64,000 nt of DNA from Anaeromyxobacter dehalogenans 2CP-1 (GTDB lineage: Bacteria; Myxococcota; Myxococcia; Myxococcales; Anaeromyxobacteraceae). The notes beneath the pieces were generated by a model. It worked only from the letters and a program-made list of their open reading frames with translations. It had not been told where the DNA came from and ran no database searches. Each line of letters begins with the position of its first letter. The first letter of the stretch is position 1. Below, piece after piece: positions 25,501-40,519 of this stretch. A program made the position numbers and the translations under genes. Location of the stretch: NCBI RefSeq assembly GCF_000022145.1, contig NC_011891.1:3826501-3890500 (forward strand), written 5' to 3'.

Positions 25501-28500
25501 GGTCGAGCACCTTCTGCCAGGCCGCGGCCGCGCGGGCCGGCTCGCCGTGCGCGAGCCGCGCGATGCGCCGCTGGTACTCGGCCCGCGCGACCGGCTCGCG
25601 GGCCCGGTCGGCGTGCTCCTCCAGCAGCGCGGCCAGCTCGTCACCCAGCCCCGCCGCCTGCGCGTGGCGGACCGCCAGCTCGAGCGACTCGGGCGCGTCG
25701 GGGTCCGCCGCGAGCGCGCGGGACGCGGCCAGGAACGCCATCTCGGCGTTGCGCAGCGGCCCGCCGTACGTCTCGGCCACCCGCCGCAGCAGCGCGGCGC
25801 GCCGGGCGGGCTCGGTCTCGTTCGCCGCCCGCGCCTCCAGCGTCTCCACCACCTTTCCGTGCTCGCCCTCGGCCGCGTACACCGGCTCGAGCAGCAGCGC
25901 CGCCTCGAGCGCGGCGGGACCGGTGCCGCGGGCCAGCTCCTCGAGCGCGGACAGCGCGGCCGGGTGGCGGGGCACGCGGTGCAGCACCTCGCGGTAGGCG
26001 ACGAGCGCGCCCTCCGCGTCGGCCAGCCGCTGGTGGCGGATGCGGCCGAGCCGGAAGCGCAGCTCGGCGGCCTCGGCGACGAAGTTGGGCTGCCGGTCGG
26101 CGAGCGCCACCTCCCGGTCGAGGATCTGGACCAGCTCCTCCCAGCGCTCGGCCGCGCCCAGCAGCCGCCCGAGCAGCCGGAGCGCCTGGGGGTCCTCCGG
26201 GTCCACCGCGAGGATCTTCCGGTACGCGTCCACCGCGCCTTCGCGATCCGAGAGCTGCTCAGCCATGATCTTCGCCACCTCGAGCAGGAGTTCCTTGCGG
26301 GCCGCCGCCGCGGGCGCGACCTCGGCGAGCCGCGAGAGCGTGACGGCCAGCTCGCGGTGGGCGCCCATGCGGCGGTAGACGCGCGCCAGCGCGCCGAGCG
26401 TCTCGGGGGAGACCGCCGCCGCGGCCACCTCCTCGTACTGCCGGGCCGCCTCGGCGAGATCGCCGAGCCGGTCGGCGCACACCGCGGCCAGCCGCCGCCG
26501 CGCCTCCAGCGCCGCGCGCGCCGGCAGCCCGGCGGCGAGCGCCACCCGCAGCGCCTCCGCCAGCTCCGCCCACGCTCCGGTCGCCGCCGCGAGCCGCTCC
26601 AGGTCCGCCCGCGCCGACGGCGCGTCGCGTCCCGCCCGCGCCGCGTCGGCCAGCTCGCGGACCCGCGCCTCGAACGCGCGGCGCCGGTCGCCGAGCCGCT
26701 CGTGCAGCGCGGCGATCTCGGCGAGCAGCGGCGCGCGCTCGGCCTCGTCGGCGCCCTCCAGCCGGACCTCGAGCAGCGCGGCCAGCCGGCCCGCGTCGCC
26801 CGCGGTCCGGAGCACGTCCTCGAGCAGCCGCGCCGCGCCCTCGCGCGCGTCCGGGCGCTTCAGCAGGCGCTCCAGGCCGGCCACCGCCTGCGGCTCGCGC
26901 GGGCGCTCGGCGAGCACCTCGGCGTAGCCCTCCACCGCCCGGCGCGGATCCGGGTCGCGCTCCAGGCGCGCCGCGCGCCGGAGCAGCGCCGCCACCCGGC
27001 GATCGGGATCGGCCCCGCAGGCGCGGGCGAGCGCCTCCAGCACCTGGAGCAGCTCCGCCGTCGCCGGCCCGGGCTCCGCGCCCGGCGCCCGCTCCAGCAC
27101 GCGCGCGAGCCCCTCCAGCGCCTCGATCCGGTCCGGGGCCTCCTCGAGCACCGCGCGGTAGGCCTCGGCGGCCACGCCCCCGTCGCCCAGCTCGTCCGCG
27201 ACCACCGCCGCGTGCAGCAGGTGGCCGATCCGCTCCTCGCCCTCCGCCAGCGCGGCGCGGCGGCGCGCGACCTCGAGGATCTCCCGCGCCGAGCGCGCCG
27301 CCTCGTGCAGCGCCGCGAGGGCCTCGAGCGCCTCGGCGTCGTCCGGCGCGAGCGCCAGCACCGCGTTCCACGCGTCCACGGCCCCCCGGCCGCCGACGCG
27401 CGCCTCGCGCAGCCGGGCCGCCTGGCGGAGCAGGGCGAGCCGCTCCTCCGGCCCCGCCGCAGCCGCCGCCTGCTCGTAGACGTCGGGCAGCTCGTCCTCC
27501 GCGCCGGTCTCGCGCGCGAGCCGCGCCAGGTCCTCCTCGGCGCCGGCGCGGGACGGCCCGCCCTCGGCGAAGGCGCGGCAGGCCGCCACCCAGGCCAGGC
27601 CGGGCTCGCCCAGGTCGCGCTCCAGGATGGCGCGCAGCTCCGCGTGCAGCCGGGCGCGCTCGCCGCGGTCCTCCACCGCCGCGAGCCGCGCCTCCCGCGC
27701 CGCCACCCGCCGGGCGTGCTCGCCGCCCTCGCGCAGCGACGCGTCGGCGGCGTCGAGCGCCTCGCGCCCGACCGCCCCCGGGACCGCGGCCAGCTCGGCG
27801 AGCGCGTCGCGCACGTCCGCGCGCGAGGGATCCCGGCGCAGCAGCTCGGCGTGGAGCGCCAGCGCGCCGGCCGGATCGCCCAGCCGGAAGCGCCGCAGCT
27901 CGGCGAGCCGGGCGGCGGCGTCCGCGTCGAACGCGCGGGCCAGGCGGCGCTCCAGCAGGGCGGCGAGCGCCTCCGGCCGGTCGAGGCGCTGGTACAGCCG
28001 CTCCAGCGCCGCCGCCGCCTCCGCGTCGTCCGGCGCGAGCGCCGCCACCTCGCCCCACGCCGCGGCCGCGCGCGCCGGATCGGCGAGGCGCGCCTCCGCG
28101 ACCGCCGCCTCCTCGCGCAGCGCGTCCTCGCGCGCCGCCGGCGCGGCCTCCGGCGCGGCCGCCAGCGCGGCGCAGACGTCGGCGAGCTCGCCCCAGCGCT
28201 CGCGCGCGCGGTGCAGGCGGCGCAGCGCGGCCAGCGCGTCGCGATCGCCCGGCGCCGCCCCGGCGACCTCGGCCCAGGCCGCGGCGGCGCGGTCCCGGTC
28301 CAGCCTGCGCTCGGCGAGCTCGGCGCGCTCGCGCAGGACCGCGAGCCGCCCCGAGGCCGGCACCGCGTCGACCAGCGCGTCGTGCACGCGCGCGCAGGCC
28401 TCCCACTCCTGGGCCTCGCCGGCCACGCGCCGCAGCTCGGCCCGCAGGTCCGCGTCGCCGGGCAGCTCGCGCGCGGCCGCGGCCAGCGCGGCGAACGCGA

Positions 28501-31500
28501 GCGACGCCTGCCCCAGCTCCTGCTCCGCGACGCGCGCGGCAGCGCGGTGCGCGGCGGCGCGGCCGCCGGGCTCCGGGTGTGCCCGGGCCTCGGCCTCCAG
28601 CGCGCGCAGCCGCCGGCGCGGGTCCGCCTGGCCGGCCAGCGCGCGCGCCGCCATCAGCGCCGCGGCCGGGTCCTCCGCCCCGAGCTGCTCCTCCAGCGCC
28701 GCGAGCGCGGCCGCGTCGTCGGGCGAGGCCCGCAGCGCGGCGGTCAGCCGCTCCACCGCGGCGCGCGCGTCGCCCATTCCGGCGCGGATGCGCGCGCTCT
28801 CCAGCGCGGCCCGGGTGGCCTCGGCCGGCTCCGGCGAGGCCGCCGACAGGTCGCCGAGCGCCTCGGCCCGCCCGGCCTCGTCGCCGGCGGCCCCGAGGGC
28901 GCCGGCGAGCCGCGCCAGCAGGCGCGCGCGCTGCTCCGGGGCGCAGCGGGCCAGGGCGGTGCGGCACGCCTCGGCGGCGGCGGCGGGGTCGCCGAGGCGC
29001 TCCTGCAGCACCTCGGCGCGCTGCGCGAGCAGCGCCACCTGCTCGGCGCCGGTCGCCGCGGCGGCGCGCTGCGCCAGCAGGCGGTCGGCGTCGGCCCAGC
29101 GCTCGGACGCGAGCGCGGCGCGCGTGAGCCCGGCCAGCACCGCCGGGTCGCCGGGCCGCAGCTCCAGCGCGCGCCGGAGCTGCGCGGCGGCGTCGTCGAA
29201 CGCGCCCAGGTCCTCCTCGGCGGTGGCGGCGGCGCGGATCCGGAGCGCCGCCTCCTCCTCGGGCCGCCCGGAGAGCCGGCCCGCCACCTCGACCAGCAGC
29301 GCGAGCAGCTCGCGGTGCGCGCCGACCTCGCGGGCCAGCGCCTCGCAGCGGGCGCGGGCCTCGGCGTGGTCGGGGCAGGCCCGCAGCGCCGCGGCCGCGG
29401 CGGAGAGCGCGCCGCGGCGGTCGCCCAGGCGCTCGGCCCGGACCGCGGAGGCGTCGAGCAGGTGGCGGGCGCGCTCGCGCGGGTCGGCGGAGGCGGGCAG
29501 CTCCTTCGCCACCCGCTCCAGCATGGCGGCCTGCCGGGAAGCGTCGCCCGCGGCGGCGTGCGCGCGTGCCAGCGCCTGCGCCACGCGCAGCGGCTCCGCG
29601 CCGCGCGCCAGCAGCCGCTCCAGGAGCGCCACCGCCTCCGCGCGCTGCGGCGGGGAGAGCCCGCCGGCCTCGACCACGGCCAGCGCCACCCCGGCGGCGT
29701 CGGCGTGGCGCCCGAGCGGCTCCGCCAGCGCCTCGGCGCGGGCCAGCTCGATCACGGCGCGCTCGGCGGGACCCCGCGCGCGCGCCGCGAGCCGCGCCAG
29801 GATCCCGATCCGCTCCTCGGCCGCGGCCGCGCCGCCCTGCGCCTCGAGCGCCGCGTGCAGGCCCCACAGCGCCTCGTCGTCCTCCGGGCCCTCGGCGAGC
29901 ACCGCGCGCCAGGCGGCCCCGGCGCGGTCCGGCTCGCCGGCCTCGGCCCAGAGCCGCGCCAGCTTCGCCCCGAGCGCGCGCCGCTCGTCGCCGGCCGCGT
30001 GCTCGCGCCGGGCCTCGAGCTCGCGCGCCAGCTCCTGCTGCTGGCCCGCCCGCGCCAGGCACGACTCCAGCGCCGCGCGGGCGCCGCGATCCTCCGGGTC
30101 CACCTCGACCAGCGCGCGCCAGGCCCGGACGGCCTCCTCCGGCTGGCCCAGGTCGCGGTCCAGGATCTCGGCCACCCGGCGCAGCAGCGTCTTGCGCGCC
30201 TTCAGGTCGCCGTTCGCGGCCGCCGCGGCGGTGCGGTAGGCGCGCGCCAGCTCCGCGAACGCGTCGGCGCGGGCGGCGGCGCCCTCCATGGCCTTGCGGG
30301 TGGCCGGCCGGGCCGGGTCGAGCGCGAGCGCGCCCGCCAGCGTGCGCAGCGCGTCGCGCGGACGCCCCAGGCGCTCCTGCTGGATCTCGGCGAGCCGCTC
30401 GAGCAGGCGCACCCGCTCGCCGGGGGAGCGCTCGCGGCGGGCCGACAGCTCCAGCACGCGCGCGAGCGGCTGCCACTCGCCGGCCTCGGCGAGGAGCGGC
30501 GCCAGCGCGGCGGCGGCGGGGGCGTGGCCGGGGTCGGCGCGCAGCGCCGCCTCGAGGTGGCGCCGGGCGCGGCCCGCATCGCCGAGCTTCTCGCGCGCGA
30601 TGGCGGCGGCGCGCACGCGCAGCGGCGCGTGGGCGGGCTTCGCCGGCGCGGCGGCGAGGTGGCGCTCCAGCACGTCCAGCGCCTCCGCGAAGCGGCCCGC
30701 GTCGGTCTCGTGCTCGAACGCCTGCAGCGCGGCGGGCTCGCAGGCGGGATCGAGCTCCAGCGCGCGGCGCAGCGCCGCCAGCGCGGACTCGGCGTCGCCG
30801 AAGCGCACCAGATCCACCCGCGCCATCTCCAGGTGCAGGGCGACCTGCGCGGCGCGGTCGCGGGTCTGCGTCGCGAGGCGCGCCAGCGCGTCGGCGTGGC
30901 CGCGGTGATCGCCGCGCTCGGCCAGCACCCGCTCCAGCAGCTCCAGCGCGGCCGGCGCGCCCGGGGCGAGCGCCCAGGCGCGCTCGATCCGCTCCACCGC
31001 GCGGCCGGCGCCCTCGGGATCGTAGGCGGCGTGGATCTGCGCGAGCCGGAGCTGGAGCGCCGCGGCGGTGCGCCGATCGGACGCGCGCGTCGCCTCGGCC
31101 TCCAGCCGGCCGGCCTCCTCGCGCCAGGCGCGCGGGAAGCCGCGCAGCCGCTCCCGCGCGGCCGCCGCGCCGGGCGCGGCGCGATCGAGCGCGAGCGCGT
31201 CGATGAGCGCGTCGGTCGCGAGCGCGTGGTCGAGCGGCTCGTCCACCAGCGCGGCGCCCAGCCGCGCGTACTCGGCGGCGAGCGCGCGCGGATCGGCGCC
31301 GGCATCGCGCGCGCCGTCGAGCAGCCGCTTCGCCTGCGCGAAGCGGCGGAGCGCGCCGAAGCACTCCATGGCGCGGGCGCGCGCCTCCTCCAGCGAGGGA
31401 TCGAGCCGGTGCGCGCGCGCGTAGAGCAGCGCGGCGCGGTCCCGCCGTCCGAGCCGCTCCTCCTGGACCTTGCCCAGCCGGAGCGTCACCGCCGCGGCGG

Positions 31501-31882
31501 CGGCCCGGTCGGCCGTGGCGGTCGCCTCGCGCTCCAGCGCGGCGGCCACCCCCGCCCAGTCGCCGCGCTCCTCGAGGAGCTCCACCAGCGCGCGAAGCGC
31601 CACGGGGTGCGCCGGCTCGAGCTGGAGCAGCTGCCGGTACAGGTCCTCCGCGCGAGCCACGTTGCGCAGCTTCCGGTGCGCGAGGGTGGCAGCCTCGGCG
31701 AGCAGCGGGCCCGGGCCGGGCGCGTGACGCGCGCGCCCCTCGTAGAGCGCGATCAGCTCCTCCCAGCGCGCGCCGCGCTCGTAAAGTCCCACGAGCGCGT
31801 GAAACGCCTCGTCGTCGCCGGGGGCCGCCTCGAGCGACTCGACGTGGGATCGGATCTGCTCGTCCAGGGAGGGTGCGCTCAA
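19568..31882 (-). CDS. gltI: GltI/AgmK-like giant TPR protein (4104 aa)
   Basis: One of the largest genes expected in such a genome. From residue 1 to about 3800 it is a near-unbroken array of TPR-like helical repeats with the pattern W-x-x-L-A-x-x-L ... A-x-x-x-L-x-x-A-L-x-L-D-P. The final 300 residues are not repeats and hold conserved-looking stretches (FVVTADPHLVEKLKRELERTL; GLSCVVPA at the end). There is no signal peptide, so it is probably cytoplasmic. Size, architecture and position next to gltJ match AgmK/GltI, a cytoplasmic scaffold of the gliding complex. The start is taken as TTG at 31882 because repeats begin at once and no better ATG/GTG exists; its ribosome site is weak. A good sigma70-type promoter stands 53-82 bases upstream. 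It is probably cotranscribed with gltJ. Confidence 0.8.
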   Translation of the reverse strand: MSAPSLDEQIRSHVESLEAAPGDDEAFHALVGLYERGARWEELIALYEGRARHAPGPGPLLAEAATLAHRKLRNVARAEDLYRQLLQLEPAHPVALRALVELLEERGDWAGVAAALEREATATADRAAAAAVTLRLGKVQEERLGRRDRAALLYARAHRLDPSLEEARARAMECFGALRRFAQAKRLLDGARDAGADPRALAAEYARLGAALVDEPLDHALATDALIDALALDRAAPGAAAARERLRGFPRAWREEAGRLEAEATRASDRRTAAALQLRLAQIHAAYDPEGAGRAVERIERAWALAPGAPAALELLERVLAERGDHRGHADALARLATQTRDRAAQVALHLEMARVDLVRFGDAESALAALRRALELDPACEPAALQAFEHETDAGRFAEALDVLERHLAAAPAKPAHAPLRVRAAAIAREKLGDAGRARRHLEAALRADPGHAPAAAALAPLLAEAGEWQPLARVLELSARRERSPGERVRLLERLAEIQQERLGRPRDALRTLAGALALDPARPATRKAMEGAAARADAFAELARAYRTAAAAANGDLKARKTLLRRVAEILDRDLGQPEEAVRAWRALVEVDPEDRGARAALESCLARAGQQQELARELEARREHAAGDERRALGAKLARLWAEAGEPDRAGAAWRAVLAEGPEDDEALWGLHAALEAQGGAAAAEERIGILARLAARARGPAERAVIELARAEALAEPLGRHADAAGVALAVVEAGGLSPPQRAEAVALLERLLARGAEPLRVAQALARAHAAAGDASRQAAMLERVAKELPASADPRERARHLLDASAVRAERLGDRRGALSAAAAALRACPDHAEARARCEALAREVGAHRELLALLVEVAGRLSGRPEEEAALRIRAAATAEEDLGAFDDAAAQLRRALELRPGDPAVLAGLTRAALASERWADADRLLAQRAAAATGAEQVALLAQRAEVLQERLGDPAAAAEACRTALARCAPEQRARLLARLAGALGAAGDEAGRAEALGDLSAASPEPAEATRAALESARIRAGMGDARAAVERLTAALRASPDDAAALAALEEQLGAEDPAAALMAARALAGQADPRRRLRALEAEARAHPEPGGRAAAHRAAARVAEQELGQASLAFAALAAAARELPGDADLRAELRRVAGEAQEWEACARVHDALVDAVPASGRLAVLRERAELAERRLDRDRAAAAWAEVAGAAPGDRDALAALRRLHRARERWGELADVCAALAAAPEAAPAAREDALREEAAVAEARLADPARAAAAWGEVAALAPDDAEAAAALERLYQRLDRPEALAALLERRLARAFDADAAARLAELRRFRLGDPAGALALHAELLRRDPSRADVRDALAELAAVPGAVGREALDAADASLREGGEHARRVAAREARLAAVEDRGERARLHAELRAILERDLGEPGLAWVAACRAFAEGGPSRAGAEEDLARLARETGAEDELPDVYEQAAAAAGPEERLALLRQAARLREARVGGRGAVDAWNAVLALAPDDAEALEALAALHEAARSAREILEVARRRAALAEGEERIGHLLHAAVVADELGDGGVAAEAYRAVLEEAPDRIEALEGLARVLERAPGAEPGPATAELLQVLEALARACGADPDRRVAALLRRAARLERDPDPRRAVEGYAEVLAERPREPQAVAGLERLLKRPDAREGAARLLEDVLRTAGDAGRLAALLEVRLEGADEAERAPLLAEIAALHERLGDRRRAFEARVRELADAARAGRDAPSARADLERLAAATGAWAELAEALRVALAAGLPARAALEARRRLAAVCADRLGDLAEAARQYEEVAAAAVSPETLGALARVYRRMGAHRELAVTLSRLAEVAPAAAARKELLLEVAKIMAEQLSDREGAVDAYRKILAVDPEDPQALRLLGRLLGAAERWEELVQILDREVALADRQPNFVAEAAELRFRLGRIRHQRLADAEGALVAYREVLHRVPRHPAALSALEELARGTGPAALEAALLLEPVYAAEGEHGKVVETLEARAANETEPARRAALLRRVAETYGGPLRNAEMAFLAASRALAADPDAPESLELAVRHAQAAGLGDELAALLEEHADRAREPVARAEYQRRIARLAHGEPARAAAAWQKVLDLAPDDREALVGLIDALEAGADPEALAQALRRGLAMEELAEGRAHLLRRLAAVQDERLGDAAGAIQSLKRLLELSPDDREALGRLDRLCVKAERWVDLGDVLAREIAAAAEAGDANVLGAVRQRLAELKENRLLDREGALELYEEVLRARPDHPEALARLEAMLQKDPGNARAAVALERAYAAAGDPLRQAAVLEQRAGERPDPQERKALYLALAELREKGLGDPSLAFLALCKAFREDPADPALRARMEALAARSGHEEELAAIYEDELDRLPPSDTAQVALRLGALYEEHLAEPARAAQFLRRAAALDPAAAPAALPALERIYQKLESWPDLADALSSLASSAHGAERVQLLFRLGQLCEERLAAPDRAAEAYEAAVAADPRHVPSLRALEALYDGAGRREDLFQNLAAQRAAAQEPAARERVLARMAALAAELGRLDEAVALWKELLGIRPRHEAGLAALEDLYERLERWQDLAQHLRLRVSATVDRREIARLNDKLGHVLGTRLGDAAQAVQSYKAVLESDPRNRRALEALRDIHAAQGDQDALVSVYRRLVPLQEDAAGVKRVRLELADVLLRAGQKREAVEQAKLAFDIEPHTAGDLVRIEETFRQGGAAQDGVRAAEARAALLAAEGGPAEAVPAWLAVADLWRAQKRNDAAAAALDKVLELDPANRTAYEQLRALHETAGNWRALARVCDLFAPHLPDPAEKLALLKEVAGVHEKRLGQKEMSFLGWCRALAEGPGDAEALAEAERLAAETEAFDELAAVLEQVAEDAKGMVRARLLLRLGKVRDERLDAPEEAEAAYRKALEADPASPEALDALTQLFKRRGRVRDLVITLEQKLEAAAGLEEKKATLLEMARIYDGELHDVEEAVSALRRVLELDGADPAALEALSELLRREQRWADLAGVLARARDLSASDEARIAYQLQIASLHENEIGDDEAAVEGYRTVLGLDDRNADALAGLERLYTKLDRFAELNRVYERLIALTQDPREQVRVLSRSAAIHDEKLRDPRSAIEKNEAVLRIDGANAVAIKNLERLYRDEALWDRLISVMQHHVSLVQDRREQVTLEVAIGEIWWKELQRVDRAEAMLSHALQLDPDSRQAVSALGRLYENSGNWNLALDMLRREARVAGGSRDAVDLQVRMGAIFEDMLMDVAGAKEAYGRALQLDPGNLPALRALKGIAERERDRDRYLELLVDEARYATDVQEKTERYTEAARVYQEERDDRESAARYYEEALKRTPGHLDAARPLSDIYVAQARWADAERVLDVIVGVLDAGGDARELCRQCYRQGYVAEKLGRMDKALASYRRAYELDATYLPALEGLGNLLVRREEWDEALRIFTAVIIHHRDGLTDLEVVETHWQIGEIAAKLGQLDRAANAFRKALEIDTNHEPSRRSLVRVLEAVGDWEGAVDQRQRLLPLLEGKARFDDFVAIGEACRDKLQDPYQAIDAFLGAARIDPTSLPVTEALLGLYRETRQGQKAADVLGQMVARPEVQADPVRAARLHLARAEVLRDEVKDEDAALAELERALDRNPRLVQAFAAIEDALTRGKRWQELEQAYLRMIQRLPKTPDVAQARLALWKTVGELYRNVLRNDDGARLAYQVVAKADPDDAVSLELYADLAARKPGEEAEAVAAYRQLLRGGSRTQKPAAALVKLHASRREYDQAYSAAQVLVHLLGATDGEEVQVVARLRKFAREQASRPLDDALWALLLHERVKGPLADIMTLLAVHARPMFLQRDKDLGLNPKKDELDVQGSMLFFANMFKYVERTLGFRGLRLFRKSGAAAKLAIVPTDPAGLVASDELFEEAPKKELWFAIGKAMAFARPELYLARLMPHDQLDLVFQAACSVGTSRFVVTADPHLVEKLKRELERTLPEGVRKNTLKLLARSYCEVQHPGDVRSYLDGAELTSNRAGALLAGDLEVVRRAAAAEKPQVSKLREETRLRDLATFCVSEEYATLREKLGLSCVVPA

Positions 31883-31964: not shown

Positions 31965-32074
31965 CGTTGTCCCGGCCGGATTCCCTTGCCCTTACGGGCA
32001 TTTGACTACATCGCCCCCGGTCGCGGGCGGGGTGGCAGGAACCCGGACGACCCAGGGTACGGGGTCGCATTGAC

Positions 32075-32091
32075 CGTCCCTCTGCGGGACG
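32075..32091 (-). terminator. Hairpin downstream of the DUF4956 operon
   Basis: CGTCCC-TCTGC-GGGACG, a perfect 6-bp stem with a 5-base loop, lies about 155 bases after the DUF4956 stop and before the gltI promoter. It could end the island transcript. The distance and lack of a U-tract keep confidence low. Confidence 0.3.
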
Positions 32092-32246
32092 TGTCTGGGG
32101 GCGCCGCGGTGCGTTTCCCGCGCAGATCGCGCGCTCCGCTGCCGCTCGCCCGACCGTGCACGAGCGGTGATCGCGGGCGGCCGGAGCGAGACGCCGCGCG
32201 GCGCGCGCGCGGCGCGGATAGCGCCCGATACCAGCCCGCGATCGCC

Positions 32247-32768
32247 TCACTGCGACTTCCGCGACGCATCGGCGAGGCGCGGCGCGACCTCGCCGGCCGG
32301 CGCGGGCGCGCCGTGCGCGGCGCCCGGCGCGTCCGCCTCCGCGGCCTCGCCGGCGGGGAGCAGGTCGAGGACCGCCAGCACCGCCGACGCCGCGAGGCCG
32401 GCGGTGAGCGCGAGGCCGAGCGTCCCGTGCCCGCACGCCATCCCCAGGCCGATGGTGAGGAACAGCACCGCCGCGTCGCGCGGGTCCTTCAGCCCGGAGC
32501 GGAACCGGACGAAGCTGCCCAGGCCCACCAGGCCGAACGCCTTCGCCACGCTGTCGCCGATCACCATGGTGATGATCGCCGCGGCGGCGCAGAGCAGGAT
32601 CTGCGCCTGCGCCATCTCGGTCTTCGGGAGGCGCCGGCCCAGGAGCAGCCGCCAGGGCCGGACCCCGAGCGCCACGCCCACCGCCAGCGCCGCGCCGATG
32701 CGCGGGAGCACCGTGCCGAGCGGCAGCGTGTGCAGGTCGATCCCGCTGATCGGGGTCAAGGGGTGCAT
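32247..32768 (-). CDS. DUF4956/MgtC-like integral membrane protein (173 aa)
   Basis: Four likely membrane helices (about 18-38, 55-75, 95-115, 118-140), with PRIGAALAVGVALGV in the first and the family stretch AIITMVIGDSVAKAFGLVGLGSFVRFRSGLKDP between the second and third. This pattern, including the RFRS/K-D-P loop, marks DUF4956, which is commonly found next to VTC polyphosphate polymerases and CotH kinases. The tail after residue 140 is Ala/Pro-rich. GGAGG stands 5 bases before the ATG. The gene overlaps the 3' end of the kinase-repeat gene by 13 bases, so the two are coupled. By context it may move or sense polyphosphate or phosphate; this is inference. Confidence 0.75.
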   Translation of the reverse strand: MHPLTPISGIDLHTLPLGTVLPRIGAALAVGVALGVRPWRLLLGRRLPKTEMAQAQILLCAAAAIITMVIGDSVAKAFGLVGLGSFVRFRSGLKDPRDAAVLFLTIGLGMACGHGTLGLALTAGLAASAVLAVLDLLPAGEAAEADAPGAAHGAPAPAGEVAPRLADASRKSQ

Positions 32769-34459
32769 GAGGCCTCCACCGCCGCCGGCGGGAGCGGGGC
32801 CGGGCCCGCCGCGTGCGCCGCCAGCGCGAGCGCCGCGTGCGCGTTCCGCAGCACCGGCAGGCTCGCCGGCGCGGCCCGCAGCGCGGCCGCGACGATCTCC
32901 CGGCCGCGCGCGGTCGCGGCGAGGTGCCGGAGCGACGACACCGCGGTGGCGGGCCAGCGCGCGACGCCCTCGGCCCGCAGCGCCCAGGCGCGCGGGTGAT
33001 CCATCCCGTCCACCGCGTCGAGCGCCTCCTTGGTCGCGGCGAGCGCGCGCTCGCGCAGCGGCCAGGTCCACGGCGCCGCGTTGCCCGCCAGCGTGCGGAG
33101 CACGCGCTTCGGCGCGAGCGGGAACAGCCGCTCGCGGAGCGCGCGGGCGGGGCCACTCTCCACCCCGACCGTCCCGCGCAGCGCGGCGAGGCCATCGTGG
33201 GCGGCGAGCGCGGCGCGCATCGCGTCGGCGCGCGCGCCGTCCACGCCGGCCAGGCCGCGCCCCACCGCGTCCCACAGCCCCTGCCCGACGCCCTCCGCGC
33301 GGAGCGCCCACGCGCGCTCCGAGCCGAGCCCGGCCAGCCCGCGCAGCACGCCCTCCAGCCCCCCCCGCTCCAGCGCCTCGGCGCGGAGCGCCCACGCCTC
33401 CGATCCATCCGCCGCGACCAGGCCGGCCACCGCGGGCCCCGGCGCGCGCGCCAGGAGCGCCGCCCGCAGGCGCATCGCCTCGGACGACGCGTCGGCGCCC
33501 AGGCCGGCCGCCACGTCGGCCGGGACCCGCCCGGCCAGCGCCCACCTCAGCGCGTGCGACTCCGGGTCGGACAGGCCCTCGAGCGCGCGCGCAACCACGG
33601 CCGGGCACCGGGCGGCGAGCGCCACCCGCCGCGCGTGGGCGGCGCGGCCGGGGATGCCCGCCAGCAGGTGGGCCGCGAGCGCGGGCTCCCGCGCCGCGAG
33701 CGCGTCGAGCGCCGCCTCGAACCGCTCCGCCAGCCCGCCGGCCTCCGCCTGCGCGGCCGCGTGCGCCCGGGGGCGCGCGGTGGGCGGCGCGGCGCGGGGC
33801 CGGCGCGGGGCGCGGCCGTCCACGCGCGCGGCGATCGCCTCCGCGACCAGGTCGGCGAGCGCCTCGAGCGACCTCCCCTCGTTCGCGACCCGGAGCCAGG
33901 CCTCCGGCGCCGCGGCGGCCTCGGCGGCGAGGTGCTCGCGGATCCGGACCTGGAGGCCGTGCCCGGCGAGGCCCTTCCTCGATCCCGGCTCGTCGGCGCG
34001 GCCCTCCAGGATCTTCCCGACGCGCTTGCGCAGCCGCGCCAGGTCGGGATCCACGTCCACCAGGACGGCGAGGTCCGGCCAGGTGCCGCCCGAGGCGGCG
34101 CGCACCGCCGCCTCGACCTCGGCGCGCGGGAGGCCGCGGCCGGCGATGGCCAGCGCCAGGATCGAGTGGAGGCTCCGGTCGGCGACGCAGAGCGCCCCGC
34201 GCGCCAGCGCCGGCCGCACCACCTCCTCGAGCTGCTGCGCCTCGCGGGCCAGGTTCAGGAACAGCTCGGCGCGCGGCGAGAGCTCGAGCAGGCGCGGGTC
34301 GCGCGTCAGCTCGCGCACCCGGCGCGCCGCGGCGGTGGCGAGGACCCCGCGCTCGCGCGCGTGGACGACCTCGCGCCCCGCGCCGCGGAGGCGCTCGCAG
34401 ACCAGGTTGGAGAGCGCGGTCTTGCCGCTGCCGTCGATGCCTTCGAAGGACACGAGCAT
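32756..34459 (-). CDS. Thymidylate-kinase-like domain fused to helical repeats (567 aa)
   Basis: Residues 1-210 follow the thymidylate-kinase layout: FEGIDGSGKT with the P-loop at 7-14, a DRS triplet near 95 where true Tmk has DRY, then ILALAIAGRGLP, a DVDPDLARLRKR segment and a basic LID-like region. After an Arg/Pro/Ala linker (about 212-245) come some eight irregular repeats of 30-40 residues with the core ALRxEAL/GxxxGLAGLxxxRAWALR, probably a HEAT-like solenoid; ordinary Tmk (about 210 residues) has nothing of the kind. It starts 4 bases after the VTC gene and overlaps DUF4956, so it belongs to that operon. PPK2 polyphosphate kinases are relatives of the Tmk fold, which makes polyphosphate a thinkable phosphate donor or product. 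That is speculative; it may simply be a dTMP kinase. Confidence 0.7.
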   Translation of the reverse strand: MLVSFEGIDGSGKTALSNLVCERLRGAGREVVHARERGVLATAAARRVRELTRDPRLLELSPRAELFLNLAREAQQLEEVVRPALARGALCVADRSLHSILALAIAGRGLPRAEVEAAVRAASGGTWPDLAVLVDVDPDLARLRKRVGKILEGRADEPGSRKGLAGHGLQVRIREHLAAEAAAAPEAWLRVANEGRSLEALADLVAEAIAARVDGRAPRRPRAAPPTARPRAHAAAQAEAGGLAERFEAALDALAAREPALAAHLLAGIPGRAAHARRVALAARCPAVVARALEGLSDPESHALRWALAGRVPADVAAGLGADASSEAMRLRAALLARAPGPAVAGLVAADGSEAWALRAEALERGGLEGVLRGLAGLGSERAWALRAEGVGQGLWDAVGRGLAGVDGARADAMRAALAAHDGLAALRGTVGVESGPARALRERLFPLAPKRVLRTLAGNAAPWTWPLRERALAATKEALDAVDGMDHPRAWALRAEGVARWPATAVSSLRHLAATARGREIVAAALRAAPASLPVLRNAHAALALAAHAAGPAPLPPAAVEASCTP

Positions 34460-34463
34460 GGGG

Positions 34464-35111
34464 TCAGGCCCTGCGCGTGCGCGCCGGCGCGGCGCGCGAG
34501 AACGCCTCGGCGAGCTTGCTGTACGGCTGGGCCCGCGCGGTGACGAGCGCGACGAGCCAGCGCGGCGGCGCGTCCGCCCCGAGCTTCAGCTCCAGCACCG
34601 CGCGCGGCTCGGCGCCGAGCGGGGGCGGCAGCCCGTCGGGCCACGGCGGCGCGCCCGGCTCGAGCAGCGGCCAGCCGGCGGGGTGGAACCGCAGCCCGTC
34701 GTCGAGGGTGACGCGCCACCCCTCGCACGGCTGCCACACGCGGCGCCGGTACGACGTCGCGACGAGCGGCGCGAGCGGCCCCGGCAGCGGCAGGCACGCG
34801 AGCGCGCGCGCCAGCGCGGAGCGCGGCAGCCAGGTGCGATCCTTGGTGGTGAGCCCTCCCCGCTCGTGCTTCAGCTCCAGCACCACGTGCCCGGGCCGGC
34901 CGGAGCGATCCGGGTGGTAGGCCTTCGCGCGCACCTTGACGCAGTCGCCGGGCGACTCGAGCGCCCGGAGCGCCAGCGGCGCGCCGGGCGCGTCGAAGTA
35001 GACGGTCGCCACGCGGGTGGTGACCGCTGCCCCGGCGCCGAGCCGCGCCGCGATGTCCCGGGCCTCCCCCGGCGCGAGCAGCACCTTGTGCTCGCGCCGC
35101 AAGAGCGTCAC
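34464..35111 (-). CDS. VTC-domain polyphosphate polymerase-like protein (215 aa)
   Basis: The tunnel-fold catalytic domain of the VTC4 type, which makes polyphosphate from ATP. Basic and acidic residues expected to line the tunnel are seen in LLRREHKVLL at the start, VYFDAP, KVRAKAYHPD, VVLELKHERGGLTTKDRTWLP, SYRRRVW, WRVTLDDGLRF and AVLELKLG near the end. There is no SPX domain and no membrane helix, so membrane attachment may come from the DUF4956 neighbour. I prefer the GTG at 35111, with GGAGGG 4 bases upstream; an earlier GTG at 35135 would add eight residues. It lies between the OprP-like porin gene and the kinase-repeat gene with almost no gaps. Confidence 0.8.
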   Translation of the reverse strand: MTLLRREHKVLLAPGEARDIAARLGAGAAVTTRVATVYFDAPGAPLALRALESPGDCVKVRAKAYHPDRSGRPGHVVLELKHERGGLTTKDRTWLPRSALARALACLPLPGPLAPLVATSYRRRVWQPCEGWRVTLDDGLRFHPAGWPLLEPGAPPWPDGLPPPLGAEPRAVLELKLGADAPPRWLVALVTARAQPYSKLAEAFSRAAPARTRRA

Positions 35112-35136
35112 CGGTCCCTCCGCGTAGGGCACCACG

Positions 35137-36402
35137 CTAGAACCTCGTCGCGAGCTGGACGGCGATCGCGTTGGCCGGCGCCGTCTCCCCCGGGCGGCGC
35201 GCCCGCTCCCCCTGCACCTTCAGCTTGAGCCCTTCCCCGAAGCCGAGCACCGCCCCGGCCACGGCGGACGATCCGGTCCCCTGCGCGGGCGCGCGGAGTC
35301 GCAGCGCCTCCAGGCCCGCCATCGGCGTGACGCGGAGCCGCTTGCCGAGGGGGATCGTGTACTCGACCAGGCCCAGACCGGCGGTGAACGTCCCCTGCTG
35401 GATGTGCCCCGTGAGCCCCTCCAGGCTCACCGCCAGCGGTCCCGCGTCGAGCGCCGCGAAGGCGGAGGCCGCCTCGCGCCGGGGCACGTCCGGGGTGGAG
35501 CGGCCGGCGCGGTAGCCGGCGGCGCCGAGCTCGAGCGCCCCGGCGAGCCGGACCGCGGCGCGCGCCACGTAGTCCTGCGGCGGCTTCTCGTCGCCGTTGG
35601 GCGTGCCCTGGAACACGCCCGCGGACAGCTCCACCGCGCCGTCCCACGGGCGCAACGCGCCGACCGCGCCGACGCGCCGGCCGCCCATCTCGTTCCGGTC
35701 CACCAGGTAGTCGTTCACCACGCCGCGCCCGATGCGCGGGAGCTTCCACGCGGAGGCCGTCTCCCGCTCCAGGAACGGCGGCTTGAACCGGCCGGCGGTG
35801 AGCCGCGTCGAGGAGGGGCCGTCGAGGCGCACGAACGCGTCCTTCAGCGGCTTCGTGTCGGCGACGTCCGCCTCGATGACGGTGAGCAGGCCCGGCATGC
35901 TCCCGCGCACCTCGATGCGGGCCCGGTCGAGCGCCACGTCGCGCTTCCACCCGTCGCGCGCGTCCGCCGCGCCGCCGACGAACACCTGCCCGCCCACCTC
36001 GATCTGGAGCCCCTCGCGGCGGGCGCGGATCGGCTCCGCCACCGGGCTCGGGGGCGGCGCGACCGGCGCGGGCGGCGCGGCCCTCGGCGCGGGCGCGGGC
36101 GCCGCGGGCAGCGGGGCGGCGCGCACCACCTCGACGCGCGCCGTGCCGGCCGGCGCGTCGGGCGGCGAGTAGGTGGCCTCGCGGGCGCTCGCCGCCCCGG
36201 CCGTCGCCGGGGCCGCCGGCACGTCCGCCTGGCCAGCGAGGGGCCGGTCGGTGTCCGGCACGGCGGCCGGCGTGGCGACCGCCACCTCGCGCTCACCCCG
36301 TGCCGCCGGTGCGGCGCTCCCCTCCGCCGCGAGCGCGGCACACGGGCTGGAGAGCAGCAGCAGCAACGGGAGCGCACGGCGCGTGGGTCGGTATGCGAGC
36401 AC
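35137..36402 (-). CDS. OprP/OprO-like (phosphate-selective) outer-membrane porin (421 aa)
   Basis: After a signal peptide (LPLLLLLSSPCAALA) there is a Pro/Ala-rich stretch of about 90 residues and then a beta-barrel of about 290. Barrel segments such as DRARIEVRGSMPGLLTVIEA, AFVRLDGPSSTRLTAGRFKP-PF and RRVGAVGAL resemble the OprP/OprO family; the GRFKxPF motif is typical. The chain ends in an aromatic residue (ATRF), as outer-membrane barrels do. The start is uncertain: I use the GTG at 36402 because it places the signal peptide near the N-terminus, though no ribosome site is visible; the frame stays open to 36522. It heads the polyphosphate operon. OprP-like proteins in general may carry phosphate or polyphosphate; selectivity here is not proven. 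Confidence 0.7.
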   Translation of the reverse strand: MLAYRPTRRALPLLLLLSSPCAALAAEGSAAPAARGEREVAVATPAAVPDTDRPLAGQADVPAAPATAGAASAREATYSPPDAPAGTARVEVVRAAPLPAAPAPAPRAAPPAPVAPPPSPVAEPIRARREGLQIEVGGQVFVGGAADARDGWKRDVALDRARIEVRGSMPGLLTVIEADVADTKPLKDAFVRLDGPSSTRLTAGRFKPPFLERETASAWKLPRIGRGVVNDYLVDRNEMGGRRVGAVGALRPWDGAVELSAGVFQGTPNGDEKPPQDYVARAAVRLAGALELGAAGYRAGRSTPDVPRREAASAFAALDAGPLAVSLEGLTGHIQQGTFTAGLGLVEYTIPLGKRLRVTPMAGLEALRLRAPAQGTGSSAVAGAVLGFGEGLKLKVQGERARRPGETAPANAIAVQLATRF

Positions 36403-36651
36403 GGCCGGCCGCGGTGCAACGGCGATGCCCGTACATCCGCGCCCACGCTCCCCCGCCCCCAGGGCGGCCGCGCGGCGCCGGTCGTGGAAGCGCCGTTCCC
36501 ACCCGCGCCCGCGGACCGCCACGCGATCGGCACGGGAACGCCGCGGCGCGCACCCCGACGGAATGGTGCGGCGCCCCGCGCGTGTTCAGACGGGCTGATC
36601 CCCTCAAGCGCCGTCCTGCGGCCCGCGCCCTCGCGCGCACGGAGATGCCAC

Positions 36652-37995
36652 ATGCGCTCGTTCCCCCGCCTGCTCCTCGCGCTCGCCGCGCTGCCCTCGG
36701 CGGCCTTCGCCGCGAGCGTGACGCGCGGCCCCTTCCTGCAGCAGACCGGCCCGTCCTCCGCGCTGGTGGTGGTGGACACCGACGCGGCCGCGACGGTGCA
36801 GGCCATCGCGGACCTCCCGGGCGGTGGGACGGCGCGCGCCGCGAGCGACGGCACCCATCACCTGCTCCGCCTCGACGGGCTGCCGGCGGCGAGCGCGGTG
36901 CCGTACCGGCTCACCGTGGACGGCGTCGAGCGGCCGGGCGGCACGCTCCACACGCCGGGCCGGCCCGACACGGCCGAGGGCCGCGCCGCCATCCTCGCGG
37001 TCGTCGGCGACTACGGCACCGGCGATCCCGCCGAGATGAACCACATCGCGCGCATCCGCGAGGAGGGCGCGCAGGCGATCCTGACGGTCGGCGACAACGC
37101 CTACCCGGACGCCACGGCCGCCGACTTCCTCACCAAGCTGTTCCGCCCGATGGCGGCGCTCCTCGCGGACGTGACGATGTGGCCGGCGCTCGGGGACCAC
37201 GAGTACCGGCAGGCGTGGGCGCAGCCGTACCTCGACGCGTTCGAGCTGCCCGAGGGACCCCAGGGCGAGCGCTACTACGCGTTCGACTGGGGCGACGTGC
37301 ACGTGGCCGCGCTGGACTCGAACTGCATCGTCCCGATGGACGCGGCCACCGCCGGCTGCGACGGGAAGACCATGGTGGGCTGGCTCACCGCCGACCTCGC
37401 CGCCAGCCGCGCCCCGTGGAAGATCGTCCTCATCCACCGGCCCGTGGTCGCGACCGGGAAGTACGGCGTGTACCCGCAGATCCCGGCGGCGCTGCTCGGG
37501 GTGCTGGAAGGTGCCGGGGTGGACCTGGTGCTGCAGGGCCACAACCACCTCTACGAGCGGAGCTGGCCGACGCGGCAGGGCCAGCCGGTGCAGAAGGACT
37601 ACGACCACCCCGCCGCGCCGGTGTACGTGACGAGCGGCGGCGCGGGCGGCTGGCTCTACGACTTCGCCCTCCCGGCCGAGCCCTGGACGGCGTACCGCGA
37701 GAAGATCGACCAGCACCTCCGGCTGACGCTCGAGGGCGGCACGCTGAAGGTGGACTCGATCCGCGGCGACGGCGTCATCCACGACACCTTCACCATCGTG
37801 AAGGACATCCCGCCGCTGCCCGCCCAGCCGCCCGGTGGCGGGGACGGCGGCGGCGCTGGCGGCACCCCGGAGACGCCGCCCGCGAACGGCGCCGTGGCGG
37901 TCGGCTGCCAGGCCGGCGCTGGCTCGGGCTGGGCGCTGCTCGCCCCGCTGGCGGTCGTCGCGGCCGCGGCGCTGCGGCGGCGGCGGCAGCGTTAG
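36652..37995 (+). CDS. Purple-acid-phosphatase-like metallophosphoesterase with MYXO-CTERM-like tail (447 aa)
   Basis: Signal peptide of 20 residues (ending AAFA), an N-terminal beta-sandwich (about 21-105) as in plant-type purple acid phosphatases, and then the metallophosphatase motifs in order: GDYG (D120), GDNAYPD (D148, N149), GDHEY (H183), LIHRP (H262) and GHNHLYERSWP (H297, H299). GHxHxYER is characteristic of the purple acid phosphatase branch. The C-terminus has a Gly/Pro linker, then a GC-containing segment, one hydrophobic helix (LLAPLAVVAAAAL) and RRRRQR: the MYXO-CTERM arrangement for surface sorting in myxobacteria. GGAG lies 7 bases before the ATG. It is divergent from the porin-VTC operon, so extracellular phosphate release is the likely role. 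Confidence 0.85.
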   Translation: MRSFPRLLLALAALPSAAFAASVTRGPFLQQTGPSSALVVVDTDAAATVQAIADLPGGGTARAASDGTHHLLRLDGLPAASAVPYRLTVDGVERPGGTLHTPGRPDTAEGRAAILAVVGDYGTGDPAEMNHIARIREEGAQAILTVGDNAYPDATAADFLTKLFRPMAALLADVTMWPALGDHEYRQAWAQPYLDAFELPEGPQGERYYAFDWGDVHVAALDSNCIVPMDAATAGCDGKTMVGWLTADLAASRAPWKIVLIHRPVVATGKYGVYPQIPAALLGVLEGAGVDLVLQGHNHLYERSWPTRQGQPVQKDYDHPAAPVYVTSGGAGGWLYDFALPAEPWTAYREKIDQHLRLTLEGGTLKVDSIRGDGVIHDTFTIVKDIPPLPAQPPGGGDGGGAGGTPETPPANGAVAVGCQAGAGSGWALLAPLAVVAAAALRRRRQR

Positions 37996-38084
37996 CGCAC
38001 GGCGAGCGCCGCGCCGCCGCGCCCGCGGGGAGCTCGCGCGAGCCCGCGTCGGCGTGCTCCGAGGTCGCGGGCCCCAGGCAGCTC

Positions 38085-38103
38085 CGCCCCGCCGGGCGGG
38101 GCG
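38085..38103 (+). terminator. Hairpin between the phosphatase and cotH
   Basis: CGCCCCG-CCGGG-CGGGGCG, a 7-bp stem with a 5-base loop, starts 90 bases after the phosphatase stop. The 178-base gap and this hairpin suggest that cotH has its own transcript. Confidence 0.35.
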
Positions 38104-38173
38104 CCGCCCCGTAGAAGGGGAAGCCCCCGCGTGCCCGCTTCCCCGCGCGCCGACCGCTGCGCTGCATGTGCTC

Positions 38174-39847
38174 ATGCGACGCACCTCGGCGGCCGCCGTT
38201 CTCCTGCTTCCGTTCCTCCTGCTCGCCTGCAACGGCGCGCCCCTCCCCGACGCCTCGCTGGGCGGCCAGCCGGGCGGTGGTGGACCGGGCGGCCAGCCGG
38301 GCGGAGGAGGTGGCGGCGGCGGCGCCGGGTCGGTGAACCCCGACGCCCCGCTCGCCGCGCCCGCCTGGCCTCCGCTGCAGGCCAGCGTCGAGCCGTACGC
38401 GCTCGCGTTCGACGACGCGACGGCGGCCATCGTCTACACGATGTGGAGCAAGGACTACGCGCCGGGCCGGTTCCACTACCACGGCGCCTGGTGGGACGTT
38501 GAGCTGCGCCAGCGCGGCGACGGCTCGCGCGAGCACCCCAAGCACAGCTGGAAGGTGCGCCGCCCGAAGGACGCGCCGCTCGACGGCGAGCGCACGCGCA
38601 ACCTGCTCGCGGAGTGGCCCGACGGCGGCTACCTGTCGGACCCGTTCTCCTACGGGCTCATGAAGGGCGCCGGCGTGCCCACGCCGCGGGCGCAGTTCGT
38701 GACGCTCGACGTCAACGGCGAGCACCAGGGCGTGTACGTCGAGCTCGAGGAGCCGGACGAGAAGCACTTCCTCCTGGAGAACGGCATCGACTCGAACGCC
38801 AACGTCTACCGCTGCGGGCTGCGCGACTGCGAGCTGAAGCTCACCCCGCCCGCCCACTACCAGGGGCCGTGGGAGAAGAAGACGAACGAGAGCGAGCCCT
38901 CCGACGACCTCGACGCGTTCCTGATCGGCCTGAACCGCACGCCCGAGGGCGAGATCGAGGCGTGGCTGGAGCAGCACGTCGACCTGCCGCGCTTCTTCCG
39001 CTTCTACGCGGTGGGCATCCTCATCAGCCTCTCCGGCATCGACGACTCCGGCAGCTACCTCGTGCACGACCGCACGCGCGACAAGTGGCTGTGGGTGCCG
39101 TGGGATCTCAACAACGCGAAGCTGGTGTTCTGGCGCGACAACCCGGTGGAGTGGGGCGTGCCGTTCCGCTACGCGATCCCGTTCTACACGCTCTACGACG
39201 CCGCCACCCTGGGCGTCGCGGCCGGCAAGGAGGCGCGCTACGGCGGCGCGCACCCGCCGTTCGTGGTGCTGTTCCAGCGCATCTGGGACCGGCCGGCGCT
39301 GCGCGACCGCATCCTCGACGAGGTGGAGGCGATGCTCGACGGCCCGTTCGCCGAGTCCGAGACGTCGCCGCGCATCGACGGGCTGCGCGCGCTCATCGCC
39401 GGGCTGCTCCCGGCCGATCCCTGGGTGGAGCCGGCGCACGCGGACGCCTCGGTGCAGGTGCTGAAGGACTACGTCCGGCGGCGGACCGGGTTCCTGCGCG
39501 AGCAGATCGCGCTCGAGCGACACCGCGGCGAGGGAGGCCTGGTGGTGAACGCGATCGCGCCGGACGCGATCGAGCTCTACAACCGCGAGGACGCGCCGCG
39601 CGACCTGGGCGGCCTGGCCCTGACCGGCGACCTGCGCCAGCGGCTCGCGACGCTGCTGCCCGCCGGCACGGTGGTGCCGCCGCACGGCACGCTGCGGCTC
39701 CCGTTCCCGGTGGCGGCCGAGGGCGGCGAGGTCGGGATCTTCGACGTCGCGACCCAGCTGCCGGTGGACGCCGTCTACTACGGGCCGCCCGGCGGGCGGA
39801 CCTACGCGCGCACGCCGGACGGCGCGGAGACCTGGGCCTGGCGGTGA
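38174..39847 (+). CDS. CotH-kinase family lipoprotein with lamin-tail-like C-terminus (557 aa)
   Basis: CotH proteins are secreted atypical kinases, first known from Bacillus spore coats. Here a lipobox LLAC gives lipidated C19, followed by a Gly/Gln/Pro linker. The kinase core shows LRQRGDGSREHPKHSWKVRR (R114, G115, K123), VYVELEEPDEKHFL and VPWDLNNAK (D311, N313/N314), where D and N of WDxN/D bind Mg-ATP in the family. The last 110 residues (AIELYNREDAPRDLGGLALTG ... EVGIFD ... VYYGP) match a lamin-tail-domain sandwich, a common CotH partner domain. The preferred ATG at 38174 has no clear ribosome site; a GTG two codons upstream is possible. Proximity to VTC and DUF4956 genes fits a recurring association. 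Protein substrate unknown. Confidence 0.85.
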   Translation: MRRTSAAAVLLLPFLLLACNGAPLPDASLGGQPGGGGPGGQPGGGGGGGGAGSVNPDAPLAAPAWPPLQASVEPYALAFDDATAAIVYTMWSKDYAPGRFHYHGAWWDVELRQRGDGSREHPKHSWKVRRPKDAPLDGERTRNLLAEWPDGGYLSDPFSYGLMKGAGVPTPRAQFVTLDVNGEHQGVYVELEEPDEKHFLLENGIDSNANVYRCGLRDCELKLTPPAHYQGPWEKKTNESEPSDDLDAFLIGLNRTPEGEIEAWLEQHVDLPRFFRFYAVGILISLSGIDDSGSYLVHDRTRDKWLWVPWDLNNAKLVFWRDNPVEWGVPFRYAIPFYTLYDAATLGVAAGKEARYGGAHPPFVVLFQRIWDRPALRDRILDEVEAMLDGPFAESETSPRIDGLRALIAGLLPADPWVEPAHADASVQVLKDYVRRRTGFLREQIALERHRGEGGLVVNAIAPDAIELYNREDAPRDLGGLALTGDLRQRLATLLPAGTVVPPHGTLRLPFPVAAEGGEVGIFDVATQLPVDAVYYGPPGGRTYARTPDGAETWAWR

Positions 39848-39860
39848 GTGGGGGAGCCGG

Positions 39861-39894
39861 GGCGGGCGCGCGGCGAGGACCGCGCGCGCCCGCC
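39861..39894. terminator. Bidirectional hairpin between cotH and gltH
   Basis: GGCGGGCGCGCGG (39861-39873) pairs with CCGCGCGCGCCCGCC (39880-39894), allowing a 2-base bulge, around a 6-base loop. It sits in the 54-base gap between two convergent stop codons and can serve both transcripts. Confidence 0.5.
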
Positions 39895-39901
39895 GCCCGG
39901 A

Positions 39902-40519
39902 TCAGAACGTGTAGCGGACCGTCGGGTAGACCGCGTACCCGCTCGCCTTCGCCTTCGTGGCGTAGACGTAGTCCGCGGCCAGGCCCACCGAGAAGTGGCG
40001 CAGGCGCGTGAAGTACTCGATGCCGGGGCCGCCCTGCACCACCACGTCGTTCGTGCTGAACAGGCCCTCGGGCCAGCTCTTCGCGTAGCCGCCGCGGCCG
40101 TGCACGTAGAGGTAGAAGCGCTCCCAGTCGTTGCGGTCGGTCCAGCCGAGCAGCGCCACGCGCAGGTCGAGGCCGCCGGCGAACAGGCTGAAGGCGCCGT
40201 AGCTCGAGCTGCCCTTCTGGTTGCCGCCCTGCCCGTAGACGGCCATCGAGAGCCGGTTGCCGAAGTCCATGCCGAGCGTGAGCCCGACCATCAGGCCGCC
40301 GGCCGCTCCGCCCCCCTTGCCGGCGTAGGGATACTTCGCCGGGTCCTCGGTGGGCGTGTCGGTGAAGCCCATGTAGCCGGCCTCCATGCCGACGAAGAGG
40401 CCGCGCTCGACGTCGCGGAAGCGCGCGGCGCGCGGGTCCTCCTGCAGCCGGGGCGCCGACTCCTGGGCGCCGGCGAGGAGCGGCGCGCTGAGCGCCAGGA
40501 TGGCGAGGATGTTCTTCAC
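39902..40519 (-). CDS. gltH: GltH/CglE-like outer-membrane barrel of the gliding machinery (205 aa)
   Basis: A signal peptide (about 18 residues, ending AGAQ) and then a small beta-barrel. Amphipathic strands with Gly/aromatic alternation recur (GLFVGMEAGYMGF, LMVGLTLGMDF, LDLRVALLGW, FYLYVHGRGGYA, FSVGLAADYVYA) and the chain ends YPTVRYTF with a terminal Phe, the outer-membrane insertion signal. Size and place directly after gltG match gltH, which I recall being equated with the contact-stimulated gliding gene cglE in Myxococcus. The GTG start is supported by AGGAGGG 8 bases upstream. It is the last gene of the gltBACDEFGH block. Confidence 0.7.
   Translation of the reverse strand: MKNILAILALSAPLLAGAQESAPRLQEDPRAARFRDVERGLFVGMEAGYMGFTDTPTEDPAKYPYAGKGGGAAGGLMVGLTLGMDFGNRLSMAVYGQGGNQKGSSSYGAFSLFAGGLDLRVALLGWTDRNDWERFYLYVHGRGGYAKSWPEGLFSTNDVVVQGGPGIEYFTRLRHFSVGLAADYVYATKAKASGYAVYPTVRYTF

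Follow-up and report, generated by a model that had tools for sequence, protein, structure and literature searches.

A compact island of six genes between the gliding genes gltI and gltH of Anaeromyxobacter dehalogenans carries a VTC-DUF4956-CotH core trio that is real and old, here accompanied by an outer-membrane barrel, a kinase-like repeat protein and a metallophosphatase. Empty sites in related genomes show that the island, about 7.9 kb in length, was inserted between gltH and gltI in Anaeromyxobacter. We tentatively favour the reading that it is an outer-membrane edition of the VTC-DUF4956-CotH module, in which polyphosphate synthesis is coupled to export and to processing at the surface. 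The trio has been described before as an accessory set of pel operons; what is new, to our knowledge, is a barrel whose presence follows lineage, a kinase-repeat protein as partner, and a genomic background with no PPK1 or PPK2 match.

Six genes form one unit between gltI and gltH

The analysis centred on a window of 64,000 bases (G000:C1:3826501-3890500) from a complete genome of 5,029,329 bases. Genes were called by third-position G+C in DNA whose composition is 70-84% G+C. Six genes, all at the positions given in the first-pass annotation, lie between gltI (19568-31882) and gltH (39902-40519). Four of them form a minus-strand operon in the order barrel, VTC, kinase-repeat and DUF4956, successive genes being separated by +1, +4 and -13 bases, and the metallophosphatase and CotH genes diverge from it. 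The features of the region are as follows.

19568-31882, minus strand: gltI, left neighbour, encoding a 4104-aa TPR protein (size and order as in PMC3169522)
31935-31964, minus strand: promoter-like site before gltI, TTGACC-18-TATACT (inside the conserved flank; readable in G104 too)
32014-39883, no strand: stretch missing from the congener G104 (blastn)
32247-32768, minus strand: DUF4956 membrane protein, 173 aa (PF16316)
32756-34459, minus strand: thymidylate-kinase-like P-loop domain fused to helical repeats, 567 aa (PF02223, AlphaFold model)
34464-35135, minus strand: VTC-type triphosphate-tunnel protein, candidate polyphosphate polymerase, 223 aa (PF09359, Vtc4 profile match)
35137 to about 36402, minus strand: outer-membrane 16-strand barrel, OprP/OprO-like, with signal peptide (PF07396 in relatives, model; probable start)
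36652-37995, plus strand: purple-acid-phosphatase-like metallophosphatase, probable MYXO-CTERM surface protein, 447 aa (PF00149, PF14008)
38174-39847, plus strand: CotH-family lipoprotein (PF08757, lipobox)
39902-40519, minus strand: gltH (CglE), right neighbour (NF033755, 133.6 bits against a cut-off of 70)

NCBIfam profiles named gltG, gltF (CglF), gltE, gltH (CglE), gltC and gltJ around the island. Gene calls, profiles and structural models bore out the composition that had been proposed earlier, namely a barrel-VTC-kinase-DUF4956 operon with a divergent phosphatase and CotH between gltH and gltI, and the island is clearly one well-delimited unit; the first-pass interpretation of the island as a whole was partly supported. 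Codon usage in the island agrees with that of the remainder of the window (r 0.97). An origin as recent foreign DNA was considered and rejected, as codon usage and G+C are unremarkable and the window holds no tRNA gene.

The island is an insertion in the glt locus

The suggestion that the island had entered an older gliding cluster was supported: the site is empty in a congener and in genomes of sister genera. The blastn match of the congener G104 ends at 32013 on the gltI side and restarts at 39884 on the gltH side, and the gap between the matched flanks is about 7.87 kb in the window versus about 200 bases in G104. In genomes from four other genera of the family (G015, G111, G060 and G107), where gltH and gltI were assigned by position, size and the gltH match, the two genes directly adjoin one another, and operon protein P0001 found no match in these four genomes or in G104. 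The island adjoins gltI in G081, G064, G067 and G103, while in G070 the CotH and phosphatase genes stand beside gltH on a short contig and the remainder may fall in an assembly gap. Gain within Anaeromyxobacter is the simplest reading of the empty sites; loss of the island in G104 and in the other genera could alternatively account for them.

The operon does not stay with the glt genes across Myxococcota. In Myxococcaceae it lies far from glt (in G123 the VTC gene is at 2.97 Mb and the gltH candidates are at 3.96 and 6.15 Mb), and since gltH and gltI are moreover adjacent in the congener and the four genera, a role in gliding is unlikely. The view that the island belongs to, or regulates, the gliding machinery draws solely on its location at the gltH-gltI junction of several Anaeromyxobacter genomes, and we regard it as very improbable given the distance of the Myxococcaceae operon from glt, the glt loci that lack the island in one congener and in other genera of the family, and the promoter-like site that gltI retains. 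The latter lies inside the conserved flank and can be read in G104 too, so that the insertion need not have deprived gltI of a promoter. A gliding function was therefore discarded on the grounds of synteny, which strongly suggests that the position of the island within glt is incidental to gliding.

Several minor observations concern the same region. One Myxococcaceae locus has an unrelated 306-aa gene (L123:16356-17276) together with small ORFs between its gltH and gltI homologues, so the gltH-gltI junction has accepted other genes too. In G064 a 23S rRNA gene (L098:170-2565) lies between MTAP and ABC-F genes, beside CotH and glt genes, and the G067 and G103 contigs end at the equivalent position. 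A candidate loss of gltG and gltH in G064 was dropped because 5000 bases at the site read N.

The VTC protein is a candidate polyphosphate polymerase

The VTC protein (223 aa) consists of a VTC domain only, with neither an SPX domain nor fused membrane helices, and it matched PF09359 with 42 bits against a cut-off of 23. A profile built from 21 VTC relatives found yeast Vtc4 at 5.9e-22, and the VTC alignment contains fifteen invariant columns. K200 of Vtc4, a position known from the Vtc4 literature, served as the anchor of the alignment. Vtc4 residues K200, R264, K281, K294, R361, R373, E426, K428 and K458 correspond to K17, R69, K89, K98, R131, R141, E182, K184 and K207 of the island protein, and the counterpart of R266 is a lysine, K71. 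The tunnel residues expected of the VTC polymerase named in the first-pass annotation are therefore conserved, the basic tunnel positions and the catalytic glutamate of Vtc4 being retained with R266 as lysine. R264, R266 and E426 are the positions that were altered to inactivate Vtc4 (PMC9911596), and the same work supports coupling of synthesis and translocation for yeast VTC.

Neither the PPK1 middle domain nor PPK2 was matched in the genome of the window, while controls were positive, so that the VTC protein is its only recognisable candidate polyphosphate polymerase. The genome therefore offers a clean background, in which any polyphosphate would point to VTC. Ppx/GppA is present. PPK1 occurs in the congeners G064, G067, G103 and G104, and a profile check did not find its middle domain in G081 or G070, both A. 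dehalogenans-like genomes, so that the A. dehalogenans line seems to have lost PPK1; no PPK1 was found in G138, which also bears the operon. Because most Myxococcaceae have both PPK1 and VTC, the latter is no simple substitute for the former, and a general mutual exclusion of the two was rejected for the same reason.

DUF4956, barrel, phosphatase and kinase-repeat proteins

The DUF4956 protein matched PF16316 with 36.5 bits (cut-off 30.6) and has hydrophobic segments and, in the alignment, a conserved FVRFRSGLKDPRD motif. It also shows a weak similarity to MgtC, at 18.5 bits and under the cut-off. The barrel on its own reached 15.8 bits with PF07396 against a cut-off of 20.9, and 13 of the 17 members of its family match this profile at E<=0.1 (best 7e-14). 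Its model has 16 strands and its top fold match is OprO/OprP (Z 25.8, 2.8 A over 291 residues); the next porins follow at Z 23.7, a margin of about two units that counts against the polyphosphate-export reading. The barrel thus resembles the OprP/OprO porins of Pseudomonas aeruginosa in its top fold match and in the family-level PF07396 matches, but it is only 16% identical to them and its own score lies below the Pfam cut-off. The barrel gene probably starts near 36402 with a signal peptide, and a shorter ORF begins at 36285. A sequence search of solved structures yielded nothing useful for DUF4956 or the barrel. The metallophosphatase exceeds the cut-offs of PF00149 and PF14008, the latter being a purple-acid-phosphatase C-domain, and has a MYXO-CTERM match under the cut-off.

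The kinase-repeat protein matched PF02223 with 65.3 bits and the dTMP kinase equivalog with 68.7 bits, under the cut-off of 83.25. In its AlphaFold model (mean pLDDT 89.8) a thymidylate kinase (TMK) domain is joined to two-helix repeats, and a repeat period of 27 aa is seen in all 15 relatives. The model adopts the fold of TMK, with Z 26.6 for the P. aeruginosa enzyme; as the TMK domain filled the fold-search lists, the assignment covers that half of the protein. As in bacterial thymidylate kinases, the fold, the P-loop and the DR motif are intact; in contrast to them, the protein carries a long helical repeat domain and lacks the AYQG thymine motif of true TMKs, whose place is taken by ALAI here and by ALSG in some relatives. 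Loss of this motif points to a kinase-like protein with an altered substrate. The identity of a housekeeping dTMP kinase was rejected on the motif, on the score and on the presence of a true tmk, which is encoded elsewhere in the genome and carries AYQG.

The operon in Myxococcota relatives

Barrel, VTC, kinase, DUF4956 and a lipoprotein form a conserved operon in Myxococcaceae, often followed by a phosphatase (for example in L104-L108). CotH is not adjacent to this main copy, which counts against the polyphosphate-export reading. Some genomes have a second copy in the order CotH-VTC-barrel-kinase-DUF4956 (L110-L113 and L116); the kinase genes of L111-L113 were matched from residue 1, and their apparent N-terminal gaps proved to be an artefact of gene calling. 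Within our sample of 146 genomes, full-length relatives of the kinase-repeat protein were found only in Anaeromyxobacter, in Myxococcaceae and in a single genome from another family of the same order. The kinase tree unites the five Anaeromyxobacter proteins and separates them from the second copy, placing them on the same side as the main Myxococcaceae copy; it supports the placement at this level and not the finer order.

Most relatives encode a lipoprotein-like protein of about 220 aa after DUF4956 (for example L097:8417-9091, L102:10922-11590, L104:7714-8379, L107:12447-13184 and L130:985-1677), one member of which has a weak DUF3108-like match. It is absent from the window, and G064, G067 and G103 have an extra lipoprotein-like gene at this place. 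Directly 3' of one second-copy operon is a PhoU-like DUF47 gene (L112:6672-7298), a possible link to phosphate.

The VTC-DUF4956-CotH trio spans several phyla

In the sample of 146 Myxococcota genomes, a DUF4956 gene is located no more than 5 kb from 87 of the 92 VTC genes, and each of the 76 genomes that carry VTC also has DUF4956; relatedness inflates the p-values of this link, which nevertheless persists far outside Myxococcota. VTC and DUF4956 were detected in the same three of 14 control genomes. A single scan of 84,980 species genomes returned 80 VTC loci from Myxococcota, Sericytochromatia/Cyanobacteria, Planctomycetota, Aminicenantes, Chloroflexi, Actinobacteria and Methanolobus, so that the trio is spread over several bacterial phyla and the VTC-DUF4956 pair is found in an archaeon as well. 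DUF4956 was near 78 of the 80 loci and CotH near 66 of them, and where 6 kb of flank was available on both sides the counts were 47/47 and 43/47, respectively. With phyla assigned from record titles, all 13 fully flanked loci of Myxococcota and Sericytochromatia/Cyanobacteria contain the barrel family, as against 0 of 33 such loci of Actinobacteria, Chloroflexi and one archaeon. The barrel thus accompanies the lineages that have an outer membrane; it was not seen in the few loci from Planctomycetota and Aminicenantes, none of which was fully flanked. Such confinement is concrete, if indirect, as a sign that some product or substrate passes through the envelope. A small protein with no Pfam match lies between CotH and VTC in some loci (L150:7564-8220, L134:4947-5495 and L130:5856-6314), and the family of the first recurs in 19 loci.

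On the polyphosphate-export reading, the cytosolic VTC protein would most likely build polyphosphate from ATP, as its fold and residues suggest, and DUF4956 would carry the chain through the inner membrane. Synthesis and export would then be coupled as in the yeast VTC complex, in which case the set would be a bacterial polyphosphate exporter. The OprO/OprP-like barrel would pass phosphate or polyphosphate across the outer membrane, and the CotH lipoprotein and the metallophosphatase may act outside on polyphosphate or on surface targets. The thymidylate-kinase-like protein, with its changed substrate site and helical-repeat scaffold, might conceivably supply or control the cytosolic side. The likeness to yeast VTC lies in a VTC-type tunnel domain that keeps the catalytic positions and in a membrane protein that is nearly always encoded alongside; the bacterial set differs in having no SPX domain or fused helices, in using DUF4956 as its membrane partner, and in the addition of CotH and an outer-membrane barrel.

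The same genes could instead serve phosphate scavenging and storage, with the barrel and phosphatase importing phosphate, VTC storing polyphosphate in the cytosol and DUF4956 acting as an MgtC-like regulator and not as a channel. The OprP/OprO-like barrel, the probable surface phosphatase, the PhoU-like gene beside a second-copy operon, the lack of PPK1 and PPK2 in the genome and the weak MgtC match of DUF4956 all agree with this account. However, the core trio occurs without the barrel in Actinobacteria and Chloroflexi, the phosphatase profile was found in only 1 of the 80 wide VTC loci, and the CotH partner is left unexplained, so that we consider scavenging rather unlikely.

The first-pass annotation had stated that CotH-VTC-DUF4956 associations recur in other bacteria and have no established role. 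Recurrence far outside close relatives was upheld by the neighbourhood counts in the 80 loci, and no established role was found in the literature searched, which consists mainly of PMC7112168, PMC2879425 and PMC11677781; however, the association is not altogether new to the literature. For Gram-positive bacteria, Whitfield et al. 2020 (PMC7112168) reported that cotH, a poly-phosphate polymerase gene and DUF4956 accompany pel operons as accessory genes. The three genes are clustered there as in the island, which differs in having no pel genes or DUF4832, in having glt genes as neighbours, in adding the barrel, the TMK-like repeat protein and the phosphatase, and in its outer-membrane host. NELoc-2 of Clostridium perfringens (PMC2879425) likewise combines VTC-domain proteins and CotH in one locus, but its host is monoderm and it has two VTC genes and other neighbours. 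As has been proposed for the pel accessory genes, the set could alter or control an exopolysaccharide or some other polymer of the surface, in which case the VTC substrate would be something other than polyphosphate. The lipoprotein nature of CotH would suit such a function, as would a Cthe_2159 carbohydrate-binding protein whose gene repeatedly neighbours VTC-DUF4956 in Chloroflexi and Methanolobus (L197:12144-13943 and six other loci). Set against this are the retention of all Vtc4 catalytic positions and the lack of a polysaccharide synthase gene in the island or among the identified flanking genes, and we judge a surface-polymer function unlikely.

The CotH lipoprotein

The CotH protein matched PF08757 with 268 bits (E 1.8e-79), and its gene most likely starts at 38174, where the product has the lipobox MRRTSAAAVLLLPFLLLACNG. 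The canonical CotH motif is D...N followed by W-D-x-[DN]. In the protein of the window, and likewise in that of G064, both aspartates are kept, the loop is shorter and the asparagine, which is conserved in about 90% of relatives, is replaced by glycine or serine. This loss makes kinase activity doubtful and counts against the polyphosphate-export reading, and protein phosphorylation should not be assumed. A further possibility, which we consider improbable, is an extracellular phosphorylation system in which CotH-type enzymes at the ATP-free surface would draw their phosphoryl groups from VTC polyphosphate exported via DUF4956 and the OprO-like barrel. Elsewhere in Myxococcota, long CotH proteins of about 940 aa that are encoded next to VTC (L140:5515-9459 and L145:6622-9447) lack the aspartate of W-D, having W-S or W-N in its place, and look like pseudokinases.
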